Source: Nitrosopumilus sp.
Lineage (GTDB): Archaea > Thermoproteota > Nitrososphaeria > Nitrososphaerales > Nitrosopumilaceae
DNA length: 64,000 bases
Direction: 5' to 3'
NCBI GenBank assembly: GCA_029862745.1
Contig: JAOTWS010000002.1
Location: 1-64,000, forward strand
Shown: piece after piece, positions 1-52,011 of the stretch
How positions within the stretch are numbered: position 1 is the first letter of the stretch
How the letters are laid out: every line of letters starts with the position of its first letter
The notes under the pieces: model-generated
The model's input: only the letters and a program-made list of their open reading frames with translations
The model's database searches: none
Told to the model about the DNA's origin: nothing
Position numbers and translations under genes: made by a program

Positions 1-147
1 GATCCTAAAACAGGGCCAATTGGTGAAAAAGTAGTATTTTCAAACGTTGTTCCAGAATTTGGTACAATTGCAATGATGATACTAGCTGTTGCAATCATAA
101 GCATCGTAGCAGTAACTGCAAAATCTAGAGTCATTCCAAAATTTTAG
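1..147 (+). CDS. C-terminal end of PEFG-tailed surface protein (partial)
   Basis: The reading frame is open from the first base of the window and ends at TAG, so only the last 48 residues are present. The tail has a VVPEFG motif, a hydrophobic stretch of about 20 residues and a short basic end. This is the layout of the thaumarchaeal PEFG-CTERM sorting signal, recognised by archaeosortase-type enzymes in exported proteins. The same tail ends the gene at 6655-8013. The body of the protein is outside the window, so its function cannot be told. It converges on the next gene with a 14-bp gap. Confidence 0.75.
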   Translation, partial: DPKTGPIGEKVVFSNVVPEFGTIAMMILAVAIISIVAVTAKSRVIPKF

Positions 148-161
148 GAATTCCTCTTTTC

Positions 162-803
162 TTATTTTCTTTTAATTAATGCAATTATCGCTAAGATAAT
201 TGCTGCTGCTGCAATTGATAATCCAAATACTGCAAAGTCATAAGATGCTCCATCATCTAAAGAAGAAACAGATTTCTCATCAGATTTTAGTTTTGAAACA
301 TCTTGTTGCAATGATGAAATAGCATTTTTTAGAGCAATGACATCACCAGTTCCTTCAGCGGTAGTCGGAGGAAAATCTAAAACTGCAGTAGACTCTACAT
401 CTTCAATTGGAATTTTTATATCAATCACAGTTCCATCTATTTCACCTTTGAATTCAACCATATAGGTACCAGTTTTAGTTGGAATAATTGGAGAAAAATA
501 GTATCCAGGTCGTGGGTCAGAATTTACATCAATTTTTTTTGTAGCCCCACCAAACATAACAGTAGTATCTACATCTTTGAAAACACTAGTAACTCCTTTG
601 TATGATCCTTCAGTTTCACCAGATTGAGTAATTTTAAAGACAAGATCATTTCGTATTCCAACAACAGGAGGTTCAATTCCCCAACCTGCCTCTATTTGAT
701 ATTGTTCAACATGAACAGTAGTATGTCCAAATGAAGGTACAAGTATTCCTACAAAAAATAATAAACCAATAATACCAAAAATTACCATTTTCATTACTAT
801 CAT
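162..803 (-). CDS. Secreted membrane-anchored protein next to the CopC/CopD fusion
   Basis: 213 residues. An N-terminal signal sequence (about 1-27) is followed by a beta-rich domain starting HTTVHVEQYQIEAGW (about 27-135), a short coiled-coil stretch (about 158-180) and one C-terminal membrane helix ending in KRK, so the bulk should face outside. The beta domain looks like small CopC/YtkA-type exported domains, but I cannot assign it firmly. It is divergent from the copper-related gene at 897, which supports a role in copper or redox handling at the cell surface. Met codons at 794 and 788 are alternative starts. Confidence 0.7.
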   Translation of the reverse strand: MIVMKMVIFGIIGLLFFVGILVPSFGHTTVHVEQYQIEAGWGIEPPVVGIRNDLVFKITQSGETEGSYKGVTSVFKDVDTTVMFGGATKKIDVNSDPRPGYYFSPIIPTKTGTYMVEFKGEIDGTVIDIKIPIEDVESTAVLDFPPTTAEGTGDVIALKNAISSLQQDVSKLKSDEKSVSSLDDGASYDFAVFGLSIAAAAIILAIIALIKRK

Positions 804-865
804 TTTGCAATAACACGTTATTATCTTTACGTGAATTGGTACAAAGACCGAAATAATGAAAACTG

Positions 866-874
866 TTTAAATTA
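866..874 (+). promoter_or_regulatory. TATA-like box of the CopC/CopD fusion gene
   Basis: TTTAAATTA is centred about 27 bp before the ATG at 897, the distance expected for an archaeal TATA box driving a leaderless transcript. Confidence 0.5.
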
Positions 875-896
875 TCAACTATGACTTGAAGAATAA

Positions 897-3680
897 ATGC
901 AAAAAATACTGATTGCTCTTCTAGCTATTTCGTTTATTTCTATTCCATTTGTATATGCCCATCCGTTTACAGAAGAAACAATTCCAAGTCTGACATCAAA
1001 TTCTCCTGCTGGTACTACAGAAATAATTGTATTTTTTTCAGAACCAGTTGACATAAACTTTAGCGAAATTAAAGTATTGGATAATAACGGAAATCAAATT
1101 GATAATAAAGATACTAGTTACTATGAAGGCGAGTTATCTCTTATTGTCACAACTCCGCCATTAGAAGATGGGATTTACACTGGAACAACTAAAGTACTCT
1201 CTAAAGTTGATGGGCATTTAGTTCCAAGTGCATTTCAGTTTGCAGTTGGAGATGTTATAATTGATCCATCTTTGTTTGAACAAAAGAGATCTTCAGAAAT
1301 TATATTTTTACCTGAAGCAGGAGCTAGGTTTCCAGGACTTGTAGGTCAGACAATTATTTTGGGTGCAGTTATTGCGTCATTAATAATTTGGGAAACTCAA
1401 AATAAGCAGTTAATCAAAGAAGAATTTGATAAGATAGAATCATTTCACCATAGTAAATTCATGTCAATCACAGGAATTGGTTTAATGTTAGTTTTTGTTT
1501 CAAATATCTTGATGATTGCAACACAATCAATAAGATTAGAGGCTTCGGTTATAGATGCAATTCAGACAGATTTTGGTTTTACTTGGATTATCAGGATGAT
1601 CATTACAATAATTTTACTGGTGATTTGGTTTACATTAGATAGGAAGAAAATTCTATCAAAGAAAAATCAAATACCATTGCTTATAGCTATGCTTGCATTA
1701 ATTGGGACTTCTAGTATGATTGGACACGGTGCAGCCAGTGGAGAAATACCTGCATTAGTTTTAGATTACATGCATAATTTGGTATCAGCAGTGTGGATTG
1801 GTGGAATATTCTATTTTGTTTTTACTTTACTACCAACATTTTCACAATTAAAAGAATCAAAACGAGAAAAAATGAGTTTGGTGATGATTCCAAGATTTTC
1901 GATGGCATTTATCATTTCAGTAGGGATTATTATAATTACAGGACCAACACTTATGTGGTTCTTAGAATCAGATCTAGGAATAATCACTGAATCAATTTAT
2001 GGTCAATTGATTATTTTAAAAATTTCAATTGCAATAATGATACTTGGGTTTGGAGCATTTTTCCAATTTAACGTTCAAAAAACTGCTGAAAAAAATTTTT
2101 CATCAGGAAAAATTTCAGTTCACAAAAAACTAAATAGATCACTCAAAATTGATGCTATGTTAGGAGTTATTCTTCTTGGAGTTGTAGCATTACTAACGAA
2201 TGGAACATTACCTGCAGGCGAAATTCAAAAAGTTGATGCCCAAGAGATTGCTTATGGATTTAATACAGTAGAATTTACAGAAAATGCAAAATTCGATATT
2301 AACATTACACCATTCTCTAGTGGAACAAACACTATTGTAGTTAAAGTGACTGACTTTGATAACAAGCAACTATACGATTCAAATGAAGTAAAGGTAAAGA
2401 TATCCAACCCATCAAAGAATATTTCACCGATTGAAATTCCAATGGATATAATCAAGCATGAAGAAAATAAGCCAATTGAATTTCAAGGGCAATTAACGTT
2501 TGGATTTTATGGGGAATGGTTGATTGAGATTGAAGCCAAACGAACTGATAATGCAAATGAATCAAAGATTTTGAATCTATTTGTAAAACCAAGATTAACA
2601 GACATTCAAACTAAAATTACAGAATATGAATTTCCTGAAAATGCAAAGCCTCTATTTCCAATATATGATGGGAAAGATTCCATATGGATTAGTGATGCAT
2701 CAGCACCACGATTATGGGAATTTTCACTTGAAACAAAAGAATTTACTCCATATTCATTTGATGGATTGGTAACCACATTTCTAACTCAAGATAATAAAGG
2801 AAGAATTTGGTTTACAGATACACCGCGGAATCAAATTGGATTTATTGATATTGAAAGTAAACAGATTACAACAAAAACTCTTCCAAAACTAGATCCTTTA
2901 ATTTCAGAAAATACACCACTTTTCATCCAATCTGATTTTGAGAATAATATTTGGATTACAATTGTCAATAAAGATAGAATTCTAAAATATTTACCAGACC
3001 TTAACAAATTCGAAGAAATTGTACTTACAGGAAAAGAATCACTGCCATTTGCTCTAACAATTGATGAGGATGGAAAGGTTTGGTATAGTACTACGGGTGC
3101 AGGTAAAATAGGATTCATCAATCCTCAAGATAATTCGGTAGTGCAAATTTCTACAGACATTATACTTCAAGGTCCAGAATCATTGGTTTTTGATGATAAA
3201 GGAAATCTATGGATTGCAGAACATACAGGTTTAGCTATTACCAAATTTAATCCAATTTTAGGGACATTTGAGCGGATTTTAATTCCAAACAAAGATGCAT
3301 TACCATTTGGTATGACATTTGATAAGTACAACAATATTTGGTTTGCTCAACATACAGTAGATAAAATTGGAGTTTATGATCCAGACAACAATAACTTGCT
3401 TGAAATTCCAATACCTACAGAGAATACATTTATTCAGTTTATGACATCTGATAGTGATGATAACGTGTGGTTTGTTGAACAACAATCAAATAAAATTGGA
3501 ACTGTGAAAACTACAGAAATTCCAGTTGTTGCTTCATATACAGGATCATCCAATAATTTTGAATTAAAGTATACAGAAGTTGTTTCACCGCTTATTGCAT
3601 TGGGAATTATTGCAACATCATTATTTTTTGTAAGAAGTGTTAAAGATAAAAGAAGATTAAATTCGTTGATTAATGCTTAG
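897..3680 (+). CDS. CopC-CopD-beta-propeller fusion protein
   Basis: 927 residues. A signal peptide (1-21) ends just before His22, which with Asp105 and His107 (motif KVDGH) matches the copper site of CopC proteins. A multi-helix membrane region with the CopD signature HNLVSAVWIGG follows (about 145-435). Next is a YtkA-like beta domain (about 445-570) and a propeller (about 590-880) with seven IW/VW/LW repeats like virginiamycin B lyase (Vgb) or NHL proteins, then a last membrane helix near 893-912. Single CopC-CopD fusions are known; the added propeller is uncommon. Likely role: copper uptake or sensing at the envelope, relevant to copper-rich ammonia oxidisers. Vgb lyase chemistry is not implied by the fold alone. 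It overlaps the end of the converging permease gene by 11 bp. Confidence 0.8.
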   Translation: MQKILIALLAISFISIPFVYAHPFTEETIPSLTSNSPAGTTEIIVFFSEPVDINFSEIKVLDNNGNQIDNKDTSYYEGELSLIVTTPPLEDGIYTGTTKVLSKVDGHLVPSAFQFAVGDVIIDPSLFEQKRSSEIIFLPEAGARFPGLVGQTIILGAVIASLIIWETQNKQLIKEEFDKIESFHHSKFMSITGIGLMLVFVSNILMIATQSIRLEASVIDAIQTDFGFTWIIRMIITIILLVIWFTLDRKKILSKKNQIPLLIAMLALIGTSSMIGHGAASGEIPALVLDYMHNLVSAVWIGGIFYFVFTLLPTFSQLKESKREKMSLVMIPRFSMAFIISVGIIIITGPTLMWFLESDLGIITESIYGQLIILKISIAIMILGFGAFFQFNVQKTAEKNFSSGKISVHKKLNRSLKIDAMLGVILLGVVALLTNGTLPAGEIQKVDAQEIAYGFNTVEFTENAKFDINITPFSSGTNTIVVKVTDFDNKQLYDSNEVKVKISNPSKNISPIEIPMDIIKHEENKPIEFQGQLTFGFYGEWLIEIEAKRTDNANESKILNLFVKPRLTDIQTKITEYEFPENAKPLFPIYDGKDSIWISDASAPRLWEFSLETKEFTPYSFDGLVTTFLTQDNKGRIWFTDTPRNQIGFIDIESKQITTKTLPKLDPLISENTPLFIQSDFENNIWITIVNKDRILKYLPDLNKFEEIVLTGKESLPFALTIDEDGKVWYSTTGAGKIGFINPQDNSVVQISTDIILQGPESLVFDDKGNLWIAEHTGLAITKFNPILGTFERILIPNKDALPFGMTFDKYNNIWFAQHTVDKIGVYDPDNNNLLEIPIPTENTFIQFMTSDSDDNVWFVEQQSNKIGTVKTTEIPVVASYTGSSNNFELKYTEVVSPLIALGIIATSLFFVRSVKDKRRLNSLINA

Positions 3681-4488
3681 ATAACAAGCCAGCAGATTTT
3701 ATTCCAATTGTTCCAGCAAGGAGGCCAATTGCTAATAATACAATTGTTCCAGCAGGTGTTATATCAAAAATATAAGAAATTAAGATTCCTATAACTACAG
3801 AGAAGACTGAAAAACTCATAGAGATTATAGCAGTCTGTTTGAATCCTTTGCCATACATAATTGCAGTAACATTAGGAATTACAAACAAAGCAGAAATTAA
3901 CAGTACGCCAACTAACTGAATTGATGTAACTACAGTTAGTCCTGCCATGAACACAATCAAATAATTGATTTTTTCAACAGGAATTCCACTGACTTTAGCT
4001 TGTTCCTCGTTAAATGTGGAATAAAGAATTTGTCGATAAAGTAATAAAATTACAATAAGAATTACACCAGTAAGTGCTAAGATTAGTATTGTGTCATTTA
4101 CACTTACTAGAAGAATACTTCCAAATAGAAAACTAAAGATATCTATTGTAAATCCTCCTGAAAAGCCAATAATTACAAGCCCAACTGCGATTCCTGATGA
4201 CAGTAATACTGCAATTGATGCATCACCAGAGATGTTGTATCTGTCCTTGATTTTTGTAATGATTAGAGCACTAGTTATTGAAACACCATAAGCTGTCCAT
4301 AGAGGATAAATTCCTGCCAGCAAACCTAGTGCAATTCCTCCAAATGAAGAATGTGCTATGGCATCACCAAATAATGAATACCGGCGTAATACCAAAAACA
4401 GTCCAATTACTGAACAAAGGATTGCTATTGCAACTCCAGAAATTAATGCTCTGTGCATGAAACTGTATGACAAAATTTCTAGAGTCAT
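3670..4488 (-). CDS. znuB: Metal ABC transporter permease (ZnuB/MntB type)
   Basis: 272 residues, the usual length for ABC-3 family permeases of zinc, manganese or iron importers, with about eight hydrophobic segments. It starts 2 bp after the ATPase gene and is last in a three-gene operon: binding protein, ATPase, permease. The metal cannot be read from the permease; the His-rich binding protein and the NikR-like neighbour point to zinc or nickel. Confidence 0.85.
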   Translation of the reverse strand: MTLEILSYSFMHRALISGVAIAILCSVIGLFLVLRRYSLFGDAIAHSSFGGIALGLLAGIYPLWTAYGVSITSALIITKIKDRYNISGDASIAVLLSSGIAVGLVIIGFSGGFTIDIFSFLFGSILLVSVNDTILILALTGVILIVILLLYRQILYSTFNEEQAKVSGIPVEKINYLIVFMAGLTVVTSIQLVGVLLISALFVIPNVTAIMYGKGFKQTAIISMSFSVFSVVIGILISYIFDITPAGTIVLLAIGLLAGTIGIKSAGLLSKH

Positions 4489-4490
4489 TC

Positions 4491-5210
4491 TTAATGATGA
4501 TGCATATGCTCCTGCATTGAAGCCTCAGAATATTGTTTGATGAGTTCATCATTTGAAAAGAATTTTTCAGATTCTCCATGGAAAAATAATACTCTATTTA
4601 GACAGGCTACATGATTTGCCAGTTGATTAACAGCATCCAGATCATGAGAAGACCAAATAATAGTGATTTTTTGTTTTGAATTTAATTCACGAAGTATACT
4701 GTAAAATAATTCTATACTTTGTTGATCAATTCCTGTAACAGGTTCATCCAGAATGAGGATTTTTGGACTGTTTACCAAAGCTTTTGCAATAAATACTCGC
4801 TGAAGTTGTCCTCCAGATAATTCACCTATTCTTCTATTACGAAGTTCATGTATCCATAATTGTTGTAAAATTTCATCAATTTTATTTTCATTAGATTCAT
4901 TTCTTAATCCCATTCTTACCACATCGCTAACAGTGACGGGAAAATTTTTCTCAAAAATTGGTTTCTGTGGTACATATCCAATTTCTTTAAGATAATTTTT
5001 TGATTTTCTGATATCTTCACCAAAAAATTTGATCGTTCCCATATAGTTTGTATTGAGTCCTAACATTGAATCAAATAAGGTGGATTTTCCTGCTCCGTTA
5101 GGACCAATTATACCTAAAAAGTCGCCTTGATTGACTCTAAGGCTCACATTATCTAGTGCCTTAATATCAGGGTATTGAACAGTAAGATCTTTGATTTCTA
5201 TTATCAACAT
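4491..5210 (-). CDS. znuC: Metal ABC transporter ATP-binding protein (ZnuC type)
   Basis: 239 residues. Walker A GPNGAGKS near 36-43, signature LSGGQLQRV near 134-142, Walker B ILILDEP near 154-160 and the H-loop SSHD are all present. The C-terminus carries a His-rich tail (MQEHMHHH), common in metal importers. It overlaps the binding-protein gene by 7 bp, indicating translational coupling. It energises uptake of the metal delivered by the neighbouring binding protein. Confidence 0.9.
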   Translation of the reverse strand: MLIIEIKDLTVQYPDIKALDNVSLRVNQGDFLGIIGPNGAGKSTLFDSMLGLNTNYMGTIKFFGEDIRKSKNYLKEIGYVPQKPIFEKNFPVTVSDVVRMGLRNESNENKIDEILQQLWIHELRNRRIGELSGGQLQRVFIAKALVNSPKILILDEPVTGIDQQSIELFYSILRELNSKQKITIIWSSHDLDAVNQLANHVACLNRVLFFHGESEKFFSNDELIKQYSEASMQEHMHHH

Positions 5211-6196
5211 AATGCCTCCTTTAGATTTTCAAGATTTTGTGTCATTTTAGATATGTATGTTTGATCAGATAAAACTTCCAGTGGTGATAAAATTAATACT
5301 TTGCCTCCTATCTCATTTGCAATTATGTTTGATGTGCGTGTATCAATATTTTCTTCACTAAAAATTACTTTGATATTTAATTCTCTAGAAGTTGAAATTA
5401 TATTTTCAAGAGTTTTTGCTGTTACTTCTCCATGCGAATAATTTGATGAAATGATTGCATGTTGATTAAGATTATACTCTTCTGCAAAATAAGAAAATGC
5501 ATTATGAAAAGATACAAAATCATGATTACAGTCAGATAATTCATCTCGAATTTTTGAATCAAGTAAATCTAATTTTTCTACATATTTTGCTGCATTGGAT
5601 TGGTAATATAGTTTATTTTCAGGATCAGATTGCGAAAAAGCAAACGCTATGTTTTGTACTTGAATTTTTGCATAAACAGGATTTAGCCAAATATGCGTAT
5701 CTGTAATTTCATGAGAATTTTCAGCATGAGAATTTTCAGCATGAGAATTTTCAGCATGAGAATTTTCAGCATGAGAATTTTCAGCATGAGAATTTTCAGC
5801 ATGAGAATTTTTGATTGGAATTCCTTTACTTGTATCAACTATTTTACCAGAGTAATTAGTTTCTTGTAAATTATCAACCCAATTTTCAAAACCAAGTCCA
5901 TTTATAATTATTAGATCAGACTTTTGCATTCTTTGTACATCTTTAACAGTTGGTTCCCAATCATGTGGTTCAACTCCTACTGGTACAAGTAAAATAACAT
6001 CAACTTTTTCTTGTCCAACATTTTTTGAGAATTCGTATAGAGGGTTAAATGATGCAATGACTTGTAATTTTGAGTTATCAATTGTTGTAAATTGTTGATA
6101 AGAGTTAGTTCCATAAACTACAATTGAGCTTAGTGGGATTATAACCGATATGGCAATTATTGCAAATTTTATCTGAAGATTCACGCAGCAATTCAC
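5204..6196 (-). CDS. znuA: Metal-binding protein of ABC importer (ZnuA type) with ENSHA repeats
   Basis: 330 residues from a GTG start. An N-terminal hydrophobic export segment (about 10-29) precedes a cluster A-I solute-binding fold. Likely metal ligands are His in GVEPHDWEP, His in THIWLNP and His in FHNAF, with an acidic residue in the FSEEN segment as a fourth. The histidine loop before THIW consists of six ENSHA units followed by ENSHE, encoded by a 15-bp tandem repeat. Such loops collect zinc or nickel in this family. It is first in the operon, divergent from a NikR-like regulator that probably controls it. Confidence 0.9.
   Translation of the reverse strand: MNCCVNLQIKFAIIAISVIIPLSSIVVYGTNSYQQFTTIDNSKLQVIASFNPLYEFSKNVGQEKVDVILLVPVGVEPHDWEPTVKDVQRMQKSDLIIINGLGFENWVDNLQETNYSGKIVDTSKGIPIKNSHAENSHAENSHAENSHAENSHAENSHAENSHEITDTHIWLNPVYAKIQVQNIAFAFSQSDPENKLYYQSNAAKYVEKLDLLDSKIRDELSDCNHDFVSFHNAFSYFAEEYNLNQHAIISSNYSHGEVTAKTLENIISTSRELNIKVIFSEENIDTRTSNIIANEIGGKVLILSPLEVLSDQTYISKMTQNLENLKEALC
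5711..5811 (-). repeat. 15-bp tandem repeat inside znuA
   Basis: Six near-identical copies of a 15-bp unit (plus strand ATGAGAATTTTCAGC) begin at 5711, 5726, 5741, 5756, 5771 and 5786; a seventh partial copy follows from 5801. Each unit encodes Glu-Asn-Ser-His-Ala, so every copy adds one histidine to the metal-collecting loop without a frame change. Such arrays can change copy number by replication slippage. Confidence 0.95.
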
Positions 6197-6202
6197 TTAT
6201 GA

Positions 6203-6264
6203 TTATTAATAAAGATATAAATTATTAATAAGATTAATTGCTAAACTTATAAGATAATTAATAA
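6203..6264. promoter_or_regulatory. Divergent znuA/nikR-like promoter with repeated palindrome
   Basis: The 78-bp gap between the two start codons holds two perfect copies of the self-complementary decamer TTATTAATAA (6203-6212 and 6222-6231) and a one-mismatch third copy (6255-6264). TATA-like boxes sit about 26 bp before each start (minus strand around 6213-6222, plus strand CTTATAAG at 6246-6253), so the repeats overlap both core promoters. They are candidate operators for the adjacent ribbon-helix-helix regulator; the region is AT-rich, which weakens the case. Confidence 0.45.
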
Positions 6265-6274
6265 CATTAGATAT

Positions 6275-6658
6275 ATGCCAATAGTCTCAATCTCATTAAA
6301 TGATGAAATTCTCTCAGAACTAGACAAGCTGCAATTATCAATGGGGTTTTCAGGTAGGTCAGAGGCTATCAGGGCGGGAATTAGAGTATTTGTTTCTGAA
6401 GAAAAACAAAAAGCTGATTTGTCTGGAAACATTCATGCAATTCTTTTGGTAGTACATAATGATGAATTTGATCATGTTGTTTCTGGAATTACTCATAATT
6501 TTGAAGATCTAATTACAACACATCTTCACAGTAAAATTGAAAAAGAAAAATGCATGGAGTTGTTTCTAATAGATGGAGATGCAGAGAAAGTCTCTACAAT
6601 AACAAAAGATTTCCAAATAAACAAAAACATGGATACCGTAAAACTAGTTACGCTTTAG
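6275..6658 (+). CDS. nikR: NikR-like ribbon-helix-helix metal regulator
   Basis: 127 residues, near the usual NikR length. Residues 1-45 form a ribbon-helix-helix DNA-binding domain (MPIVSISLNDEILSELDKLQ). The C-terminal ACT-like domain has the NikR pattern of His near 80, His-x-His in TTHLHSK and Cys in KEKCMELFLI, matching the four nickel ligands. It is divergent from the metal importer and should repress it when metal is plentiful. Whether the ligand is nickel or another metal is not proven; with a His-rich binding protein next door, zinc is possible. Confidence 0.88.
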   Translation: MPIVSISLNDEILSELDKLQLSMGFSGRSEAIRAGIRVFVSEEKQKADLSGNIHAILLVVHNDEFDHVVSGITHNFEDLITTHLHSKIEKEKCMELFLIDGDAEKVSTITKDFQINKNMDTVKLVTL

Positions 6659-8013
6659 ATATTTGGTGAATTTTTTCTAGTTATAAAAATAATACTGGTT
6701 ATTGAAATTGCTAATATCAGTAATACAATAGTTCCAAATTCTGGTGCAACAACTAGCGCAAATTCAGTTTCTTGCCCTGTGTTCCGAATATTTTCAAATT
6801 TAATAATTGTAGGGCCAGTCTGACCTTCTGCAAAAGTGAATTTTTCAAATTCTCCACCTATTTGTGCAGTTCCAGACACACGATGAATTTCTTTTCCATT
6901 TTGGATAATTACAATTGTGTAATCAGAATTTCGTAGGGGTTCATTTGTTTTTCCATCTCTGATTGTAAAAATAAAATTTGTATTAATTCCAGGCTCTACA
7001 GTCAAAGGATCCCATGAAAGGTTTACTTTAAAGTCCTCACTTTTTGTATACGCTTCTAATGGAAAAGATACATCATTACTAGCAGATATTGTAAATTTGA
7101 TATTTTCAGGAAATGGTTCATCAGATTTTTTCATTTCATTTTTTAAATATCGTAAATGATCTTGCAACAATACAAGATGGACAATCCTCTCATCATCTTC
7201 GGTATAATCATCAACTGATACTGAAGAATTGAATAGTTCAATATCATTTACGTATCCAGAATAACTAGGAGACAAAAACTCGACGAAATCTTTTGGGAAA
7301 TGAGTTTCTACATGTACTACTGATACATGAGACATTCGTTTTTCGCTCCAATCAAATGGCATTTCAAATGTAATTTGTTTAGCCTTAAAATCATAATTAA
7401 AATTGGAAATTGTATCAAAATAAGATTTTGAACGGAATTCTACATCGTTATTTTCAGAATCTTTCTGAATGAAAGAAATGGTCTCAATTATGCTCAAATC
7501 AGCATTATAGATACCAGAATTTTCTATGATATTTGTAGGCTCATCAATAGTTCTTATCTCAATCTCAAAGTTGTACAGACCACTCGAATTAAACAAAGGC
7601 CCAGTAATTTCAATAGGATTAGATTCAGTACTATGCCAAGCTCCAAGTAGAGAGTCTTGTTCACCATTAATTGTAATTTCATTATCTTGTGTTGGTCTTA
7701 CTATAATTGGCAAAATACCATTTTCTGCAAAAAAGTAATTTCTAAAGATCATTTTATCATCATGAAATAAACCAATTAAAAAGGTGATATTTTTTGCATT
7801 TTCTTTTGTTTTCTTTTCTGTTGCAGTAATTGTAATTTGCTCTTGTTCATTTTCAAAAACCATTGGCATTTCTACTGAAACAGATAATTCTTTTCCTTGT
7901 ACATTTATTGAAGAAATCGTATCAATTCCAAAGCCATGTCCAAAAACATTACTTACTGGAAACAATAAGCATAAAGCCATCATTAAAACGCTAAATTTGA
8001 TTAATCTCATCAT
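6655..8013 (-). CDS. PEFG-tailed secreted protein
   Basis: 452 residues. A signal peptide (about 1-25, ending NVFG) leads a beta-rich extracellular region that includes an Ig-like or copper-export-type domain near 325-420. The end carries VVAPEFG, a hydrophobic helix and RKNSPNI, a PEFG-CTERM sorting tail. It should be exported, anchored and possibly processed by an archaeosortase. I do not recognise the rest. It overlaps the converging regulator gene by 4 bp and lies 18 bp downstream of the Lon-N gene on the same strand. Confidence 0.8.
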   Translation of the reverse strand: MMRLIKFSVLMMALCLLFPVSNVFGHGFGIDTISSINVQGKELSVSVEMPMVFENEQEQITITATEKKTKENAKNITFLIGLFHDDKMIFRNYFFAENGILPIIVRPTQDNEITINGEQDSLLGAWHSTESNPIEITGPLFNSSGLYNFEIEIRTIDEPTNIIENSGIYNADLSIIETISFIQKDSENNDVEFRSKSYFDTISNFNYDFKAKQITFEMPFDWSEKRMSHVSVVHVETHFPKDFVEFLSPSYSGYVNDIELFNSSVSVDDYTEDDERIVHLVLLQDHLRYLKNEMKKSDEPFPENIKFTISASNDVSFPLEAYTKSEDFKVNLSWDPLTVEPGINTNFIFTIRDGKTNEPLRNSDYTIVIIQNGKEIHRVSGTAQIGGEFEKFTFAEGQTGPTIIKFENIRNTGQETEFALVVAPEFGTIVLLILAISITSIIFITRKNSPNI

Positions 8014-8031
8014 TATTTCTTTTTCACGGAC

Positions 8032-8742
8032 CTATTTTACTGTCAGCAATTCCTCAACTTTTTGGATTAGTTCATCCATTGTTCTTGCCTCCAATATTGG
8101 TTGAAGTTCATTTGGATCCTTTGCACCAAGAGCAGATAATGAATAAACATAGTCAATTGTAGGTGTTTCTGTATTAAGATAATATTGTTCCAAAACATGA
8201 TCTAATGCATGTGGTTCAACTATTTGAGGTAATGCCTGTGAGATAATTTTCTTTTTCCATAATTGAACCAATTGTTCCCATTTTTCGTATGAAATATTTT
8301 CATCTATTTCCAAAAGCATTTCAACTTCAGCTTGAATGTACATTTTCTCTTTAATTCCAATTTTCTCATGCATTTCAGATATTTCCTGATGTCCTTCTAC
8401 TGAAAGAGGATCATAGTTTACAGGTTGAGGAATAGATGGCGGGATGATTCTTTTAATTTGAAATGAGTTTCTTCCAATTGTTTCAATGTGAAGTTGTAAT
8501 CCATCTAGATTAACATCTTCACATTTGGTTATCTTAGCGATAGTTCCTATCATTCTGGGTGAATTCCATCCTTTTATAGAATTATTTTCATCAATCAAAC
8601 ATACTCCAAATTGTCCGTCGCCAAGCATACAATCATCAACTAACTGTTTGTAGCGAGGCTCGAATATTCTAAGAGGAAGTTCTTGTCGAGGAAATAATAC
8701 CAAGTCTAATGGAAAAATAGGGATAATTTTTGTTTCTGTCAT
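8032..8742 (-). CDS. Lon N-terminal (substrate-binding) domain protein
   Basis: 236 residues beginning with the LON/PUA-like signature IPIFPLDLVLFPRQELPLRI and FEPRYKQLVDDCM. There is no AAA+ or Ser-Lys protease domain, so this is a stand-alone Lon-N protein, perhaps an adaptor for protein turnover. A helical C-terminal half (about 120-236) matches the helical part of Lon-N domains. Its precise role is unknown in archaea. Confidence 0.85.
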   Translation of the reverse strand: MTETKIIPIFPLDLVLFPRQELPLRIFEPRYKQLVDDCMLGDGQFGVCLIDENNSIKGWNSPRMIGTIAKITKCEDVNLDGLQLHIETIGRNSFQIKRIIPPSIPQPVNYDPLSVEGHQEISEMHEKIGIKEKMYIQAEVEMLLEIDENISYEKWEQLVQLWKKKIISQALPQIVEPHALDHVLEQYYLNTETPTIDYVYSLSALGAKDPNELQPILEARTMDELIQKVEELLTVK

Positions 8743-50511: not shown

Positions 50512-51534
50512 GTGGATTTTCTAAAAATCAATGGAGCATATGGTGAGGGTGGTGGACAAATTATCCGCTCGGCTATTATACTTTCATGTATCACTAAACA
50601 ACCAATTCATCTAGAAAATATTAGAGAAAATAGAAAAATTCCGGGAATAAGACCACAACATCTTACTGCAATAATAATTCTTCAAAAGATAGCAAACGCT
50701 AAAGTTATCGGAGCAGAGATTGGATCTACAGAATTAAAATTTATTCCAAATAATATTGAAAGTTTAGAATTAGTTGAAGATGTAAGAACAGCTGGAAGTA
50801 TTTCATTAATTTTACAAGTTTTGATTCCTGTTGTTGCTATTTCTCAAAAAAAACTTAATTTAATAATTAAAGGTGGAACAGATGTTCTTTGGAGTCCTAC
50901 AATTGATTATACTCAACATGTTCTAAGAGAAGCATATTCTAGAATGGGAATAAAATTTTCACTTAAATTAACTAAACGTGGATATTATTCAAGAGGAGGA
51001 GGAGAAATTTGTTTACAAGTATATCCTTCACATTTAAAATCAATATCATTTACAAAAAGAACAACTAATAATGTAAAATTGATTTGTACATTTTCAAAAA
51101 TATCAGAAGAGAAGATTAAGGATCAAATTGAATGGATTAAAAGAAAATTAGTTGATAAGAATTTTATTGTTGAGATTAAAATAAAAAATCAAGAAGCAAT
51201 TGATTCAGGGGCATCGTTGCTGATTTATAGTATTGATGAAAATTCAATTATAGGAGTTGATACGTTATTTGATAAAAAAATGCAAAGATTTGATGTAGAA
51301 TTTGGTAAATTTATAAATTCTTTGGCAGTAGACGATAATTTAGCAGACATGTTGGTTGTTCCCGCAAGTTTAGGAAATGAAAAAACAACATTTCAAGTTA
51401 GAGAAATTACAAAACATTTGGAAACAAATTTGTTTGTAACATCAAAAATTACAGGTTGTAAATATGGAGTTAGGAAGATAAACGGAGGATTTGAGATAAT
51501 TATTAAAGGAATTTCAGACTCCAGCATCAAGTAA
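50512..51534 (+). CDS. rtcA: RNA 3'-terminal phosphate cyclase
   Basis: 340 residues from GTG. Motifs GAYGEGGGQIIRSAI (start), RENRKIPGIRPQHLT and YYSRGGGEI are typical. The adenylated histidine should be His in REITKHLETNL near 305. It converts RNA 3' phosphates to 2',3' cyclic ends. No RtcB is present nearby. Confidence 0.93.
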   Translation: MDFLKINGAYGEGGGQIIRSAIILSCITKQPIHLENIRENRKIPGIRPQHLTAIIILQKIANAKVIGAEIGSTELKFIPNNIESLELVEDVRTAGSISLILQVLIPVVAISQKKLNLIIKGGTDVLWSPTIDYTQHVLREAYSRMGIKFSLKLTKRGYYSRGGGEICLQVYPSHLKSISFTKRTTNNVKLICTFSKISEEKIKDQIEWIKRKLVDKNFIVEIKIKNQEAIDSGASLLIYSIDENSIIGVDTLFDKKMQRFDVEFGKFINSLAVDDNLADMLVVPASLGNEKTTFQVREITKHLETNLFVTSKITGCKYGVRKINGGFEIIIKGISDSSIK

Positions 51535-52011
51535 TGATGCAAAAAATAGTATTGCAACTGACAAAACTACAGTAATTTCTCCTAGAATTATTATTTTTTT
51601 CCTTAATTTTTGAATTTCAGGTGCTAACATTTGGTTAGACATGATTTTAACTTCTATATCTTTACGAATAACTCGTACATGAATTATATAAGTTACAATC
51701 AGTGCAACGACAAGTATTATTTTAATTATTAGAAATGTGCCATAACTTGTTCCAACAAGCAAATCCGGTTTACTAAGAAGGGCATATGAGCTATACAATC
51801 CAGTTGCCATGAGAATAATTAATGACGGAACTGCAATTTTGTTAAATCGTCTTCCAACACGAATCATTATTTGCATTCTTTCTTCAACAGAGTTGCTCAA
51901 CGTTTTTAGAAGTGGTGAGAATACAATTCCAATGAAAAGGGAGCCTCCAACCCATATTGCTGCAGAAACAAGATGAATCCAAGTAAGAATAGCTTGTTCT
52001 ATTGCACTCAT
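51514..52011 (-). CDS. CopD-like four-helix membrane protein
   Basis: 165 residues, four membrane helices (about 10-32, 55-74, 85-108, 138-160). WIHLVSAAIWVGG matches the HNLVSAVWIGG signature of the CopD part of the gene at 897, so it belongs to the same membrane superfamily. It may bind heme or copper through the histidine. Overlaps rtcA's end by 21 bp. Confidence 0.75.
   Translation of the reverse strand: MSAIEQAILTWIHLVSAAIWVGGSLFIGIVFSPLLKTLSNSVEERMQIMIRVGRRFNKIAVPSLIILMATGLYSSYALLSKPDLLVGTSYGTFLIIKIILVVALIVTYIIHVRVIRKDIEVKIMSNQMLAPEIQKLRKKIIILGEITVVLSVAILFFASLLDAGV

Follow-up and report, generated by a model that had tools for sequence, protein, structure and literature searches.

One of the closest described counterparts of the locus reported here is the YcnJ system of B. 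subtilis (PMC12362106, PMC13344008). YcnJ supports growth at low copper only if the copper residues of its CopC and CopD domains are intact; the YtkA domain of the protein aids CuA assembly, a role in which it overlaps with CtaK (PMC13344008). The adjacent gene encodes YcnI, a DUF1775 protein with a mono-histidine brace, which binds Cu(II) through its N-terminal His, one Glu and one Trp; the metal is exchanged between YcnI and the CopC domain (PMC12362106). The CopC/D fusion of AOA is already published, as the orthologues NVIE_014300 and NVIE_014310 within the phylum (Reyes 2020, main text; PMC7785015). The same main text reports that N. viennensis genes induced by copper limitation carry the motif TTCSGSMTTTGWACYANT at -35 to -70, and proposes that this motif is conserved in terrestrial AOA.

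We analysed a 64,000-nucleotide stretch of a Nitrosopumilus sp. genome (the window), in which the gene at 897-3680 (+ strand) encodes a protein, P0001, that has the module order CopC-CopD-YtkA of YcnJ and, in addition, a propeller. An earlier note made from the sequence had claimed four modules in one protein, and this held: the frame is single, 927 aa long and has zero internal stops, and its parts are supported by Pfam and NCBIfam matches, full-length orthologues and an AlphaFold2 model. A putative signal peptide (aa 1-21, 897-959, +) would be cleaved between VYA and H22; its -3/-1 pattern and H22 are invariant among the aligned relatives. The CopC domain (aa 22-118, 960-1250, +; Pfam match at 22-117, 8.5e-8) carries the Cu(II) brace ligands H22, D105 and H107. 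It is followed by the CopD membrane domain (aa 144-434, 1326-2198, +), which has eight helices and the invariant residues H277 and H293; Pfam matches 331-433 (1.2e-12), and the NCBIfam profile spans the whole of 144-434 (3.4e-24) under its own cut-off. The YtkA-like beta domain (aa 450-565, 2244-2591, +) is below Pfam detection in the window protein and was placed by the AlphaFold strands and by the orthologue L085, which is above the Pfam YtkA cut-off (4e-8; a further orthologue, L097, gave 0.005). The propeller (aa 572-875, 2610-3521, +), placed by Pfam, alignment and Foldseek, precedes a C-terminal membrane helix (aa 896-916) with a basic tail (VKDKRR), together at 3582-3677 (+). In the AlphaFold2 model, of moderate confidence (pLDDT 70; CopC part poor), CopD forms eight helices, a beta domain occupies about 455-563 and the blades about 572-875, and the final membrane helix follows. 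The propeller had been taken to replace the usual short tail; instead, the YtkA-like domain remains, and the propeller is an addition that follows this domain and precedes the last membrane helix. An Rfam search of positions 1-8100 of the window gave zero matches.

P0001 and YcnJ also share the CopC brace ligands, conserved histidine in CopD, which in YcnJ is H295, the location of both ends outside the cell, and an adjacent gene for a membrane-anchored partner with an N-terminal His. In contrast to P0001, YcnJ has no propeller, its partner is a DUF1775 protein and its repressor is YcnK.

To place the fusion within the order, 300 genomes were searched, and 262 gave some match, many of these being relatives of CopD or of the propeller only. 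Full-length orthologues of P0001 were found in almost all sampled Nitrosopumilaceae genera and, with identities of 32-37%, in families f2 and f3 and in most of f8. The four-module fusion is unbroken in all 94 aligned rows (90 distinct proteins), which include every main AOA family found, and these 90 intact orthologues rule out a frame error or chance fusion. A frame error between CopD and the propeller was looked for in these rows and zero cases were seen; the same was true of loss of the copper ligands. His22, Asp105 and His107 of CopC are invariant in 94/94 rows, as the earlier reading of kept ligands had it, and so are H277 and H293 of CopD, which are also present in a Deinococcus CopC-CopD. 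Among about 250 non-AOA Thermoproteota and 72,556 plasmid records the fusion was absent, and propeller and CopD occurred there in separate proteins only. Conservation of the fusion was upheld in almost every AOA examined. In the soil genus g27 (L153, L154), the four-module propeller fusion was not found and a CopC-YtkA-like gene is accompanied by a separate CopD gene nearby; copper supply in AOA therefore does not depend on the propeller. In part of f8, a second, shorter CopC-CopD gene without the propeller adjoins the long gene directly downstream (L097 3108-5132; L099 2930-4969), and in these two loci a 251-aa P0002-like frame (see below) lies between them.

The predicted repeat number of the propeller was also correct. 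Seven blades are marked by W at 597, 638, 686, 729, 772, 815 and 858, and the best family match is Pfam Vgb_lyase (704-873, 2.6e-36). Foldseek of the AlphaFold2 model (pLDDT mostly 80-92 in this part) returned virginiamycin B lyase 2Z2N at the top (TM 0.92 by target, rmsd 2.2), and the seven-bladed fold and the repeat signature are common to P0001 and the lyase structures 2Z2N and 2QC5. Unlike virginiamycin B lyase, the propeller lacks the catalytic His and Glu, has an additional invariant His pair and is fused outside a membrane transporter. The catalytic His270 of Vgb, which lies in P-H-G-I and is mutated in 2Z2P, is missing, and no blade has P-H-G; in a provisional blade register taken from the sequence, His270 corresponds to Gln847 and Glu284 to the variable position 862. 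H776, H819 and Q847 are invariant across the 94 aligned rows, and E775, E861, D600 and D641 are each present in 93. These residues are in blades 5, 6, 7, 1 and 2, with none in blades 3 and 4, and by analogy with the Vgb blade topology they would all be on the same face, close to the central channel. What the conservation shows is a fixed site, distinct from the Vgb catalytic site; sensing of copper or a ligand, which the earlier note had proposed, is a candidate role beyond this. Between families, the propeller is 32-37% identical and CopD 31-39%; being equally conserved, the propeller is not decaying. As a separate observation, a Vgb-type propeller is joined to a dienelactone hydrolase in a 658-aa protein of the same genome (L002 172-2148, contig C8), and its blades lack the paired His of the P0001 propeller.

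The second exported beta-domain gene that had been noted as divergent beside P0001 is real and conserved. It lies at 162-803 (- strand) and encodes P0002, a C-terminally anchored beta protein with a membrane helix at 185-212 and with His27 at its mature N-terminus, W41 and E44. Among the homologues, the mature start is strongly conserved (His27 88/88, W41 88/88, E44 87/88); an N-terminal His is rare, being found in 2.6% of signal-cleaved proteins (PMC12537917). It had been asked if the fusion is always next to this gene. In the 88 loci with enough flanking sequence, a P0002 homologue is divergent within 300 bp of the P0001 orthologue in 73 and no farther than about 2.3 kb away in another 11; the remaining 4 have none, and "always" is nearly true. 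P0002 resembles YcnI in its N-terminal His, conserved Trp and Glu, C-terminal membrane helix and position beside a CopC-CopD gene. Unlike YcnI, it has no DUF1775 match (there were zero Pfam matches at E up to 1), which rules out DUF1775 membership by sequence, and its model is nearest to P19/FetP and CrdA. CrdA was the first Foldseek match, and VIA-align gave FetP/P19 and CrdA a Z of about 10 (model pLDDT 65), nearly equalled by a DUF4426 protein at 9.8, with other folds at 7.7 or less. FetP/P19 and H. pylori CrdA would share this fold with P0002, the identities being 10-17%; the ligand sets appear to differ, and CrdA has no histidine. The modelled resemblance to copper proteins is a lead, not proof. 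Profile comparison of P0002 with the YtkA-like and CopC modules gave no usable probability of sequence kinship.

The region between the two genes contains an operator-like site, TTCGGTCTTTGTACCAAT (835-852, -), apparently shared by them. It has one mismatch to the N. viennensis motif TTCSGSMTTTGWACYANT, is placed at -62, inside the reported range of -35 to -70, and is the sole match at up to one mismatch in the 1.81 Mb of genome scanned. Phylogenetic footprints suggest a conserved BRE/TATA-like core promoter on either side of it, one facing the 162-803 gene (818-833, -; footprint within Nitrosopumilus) and one, GAAAACTGTTTAAATT, facing the CopC-CopD gene (858-873, +). In Nitrosopumilus relatives the site holds its position at about -60 to -63 between the two TATA-like elements while its flanks vary. 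The core TTCGNNNTTTGTACCA gave 21 matches in 19 of 50 Nitrosopumilus genomes and 0 for the reversed control, the genomes being related and the events not independent. Seventeen of the 21 are in the P0001-P0002 intergenic region, two are 5' of a multicopper oxidase, one is 5' of a cupredoxin-like gene, and one (L128) has no clear copper gene beside it. The multicopper oxidase genes are those of the Nitrosopumilus relatives L119 (1501-2943) and L120, in which the motif is immediately 5' of the annotated-length frame. Outside the genus, several f8 loci have a similar site at -60 to -63, and the site is weak or absent in f2 and many distant Nitrosopumilaceae. L099, which is probably N. viennensis, has two copies of the motif before the propeller-bearing gene and one before the P0002 homologue. 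The doubled motif agrees with the report for copC/D_b, NVIE_014310, which is very probably the propeller-bearing form. In Nitrosopumilus, the single site between the two genes appears to control the pair. The main text of Reyes 2020 (PMC7785015), taken apart from its supplements, mentions neither the propeller, nor the P0002 family, nor the motif in marine AOA, and a search of main texts in part of the journals found no published description of the propeller. The window also encodes a lone CopD-like membrane protein (51523-52002, -; Pfam CopD 1.4e-13), near which the copper-limitation motif gave no match.

That the P0001 modules handle copper outside the cell, as the earlier note had suggested, is well supported, because the CopC brace ligands and the CopD histidines are invariant, the architecture is YcnJ-like, the divergent partner resembles copper proteins and the intergenic site matches the copper-limitation motif. 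Taken as a whole, P0001 is probably a YcnJ-type copper importer or acquisition protein to which a propeller head has been added and whose partner is YcnI-like. The CopC domain would catch Cu(II) outside the cell through its N-terminal histidine brace and, as inferred from YcnJ and YebZ, pass it to the eight-helix CopD by way of the two invariant histidines. CopD would import the copper, and the YtkA-like domain may load copper enzymes outside. The Vgb-fold propeller, anchored in the membrane on both sides, could be a head for docking: the fixed His/Glu/Asp/Gln site on part of its face would most likely hold either another protein or copper in complex with a ligand; streptogramin lyase activity is not expected. 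P0002 is likely to be a Cu(II) carrier and would exchange copper with CopC in the manner of YcnI and YcnJ, and the intergenic site would give both genes a copper-responsive control in Nitrosopumilus.

Other explanations were weighed against this acquisition role. P0001 may be primarily an assembly factor for cuproenzymes, its YtkA-like domain and propeller supplying cytochrome oxidase (CuA) or AMO, with import secondary. The overlap of the YcnJ YtkA domain with CtaK in CuA assembly is in line with such a role, and complex IV and CopC/D shift together in both AOA covered by the main text of PMC7785015, but the invariant CopD histidines point to a copper path through the membrane, and oxidase genes did not appear among the linked genes that were compared; we regard it as possible but rather unlikely. 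A function in copper resistance or oxidative stress, in which uptake or sequestration outside the cell limits damage and the propeller is a mere scaffold, is unlikely. CopC and CopD are classical resistance genes, and H2O2 raised the level of a CopC-type membrane protein in each of three Nitrosopumilus strains (PMC6593220). In N. maritimus, copper limitation lowered CopC/D and raised a lone CopD (Qin 2018, as cited in the main text of PMC7785015), which favours resistance and also means that the motif may not signify low-copper induction in marine AOA. Against resistance, the same main text reports that N. viennensis raises both of its CopC/D genes, which bear the motif, under copper limitation; the precedent of YcnJ is one of acquisition, and the propeller site is conserved.

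Two further explanations concern the propeller itself. It could act as a receptor for organically complexed copper, or as a lyase that has diverged to handle such complexes; the His/Glu/Asp/Gln site on one of its sides would seize or strip the ligand-bound copper, and P0002 and CopC would relay it to CopD. We consider this quite improbable; if true, it would give AOA a dedicated route to ligand-bound copper. An active streptogramin or related lyase joined to a copper transporter is suggested by the Vgb_lyase family match and the close fold similarity to 2Z2N, but with Gln847 in the place of His270, P-H-G absent and the place of Glu284 variable, all in the provisional register, we hold it to be very improbable, and an active Vgb lyase was rejected on these residues. 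Labels of "virginiamycin B lyase" in Thaumarchaeota have been used to suggest streptogramin resistance (PMC10064710), and such labels need to be checked for the catalytic histidine. The nearly AOA-wide gene pair, the named ligands, the unexplained propeller and the candidate control site make copper acquisition testable.

Other metal-related genes are located nearby. A ZnuA-type metal-binding protein with a His-rich loop of HAENS repeats is encoded at 5204-6196 (-), in an ABC cluster with ZnuB, ZnuC and a NikR-like regulator (6275-6658), and this cluster adjoins the copper gene in Nitrosopumilus. The gene at 6655-8013 (-) encodes a PEFG-CTERM protein, the mature form of which probably starts with H-G-F-G. 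In other AOA, several relatives encoded close to the copper gene have retained a His right behind the signal peptide, suggesting that this protein may be another N-terminal-His metal protein.
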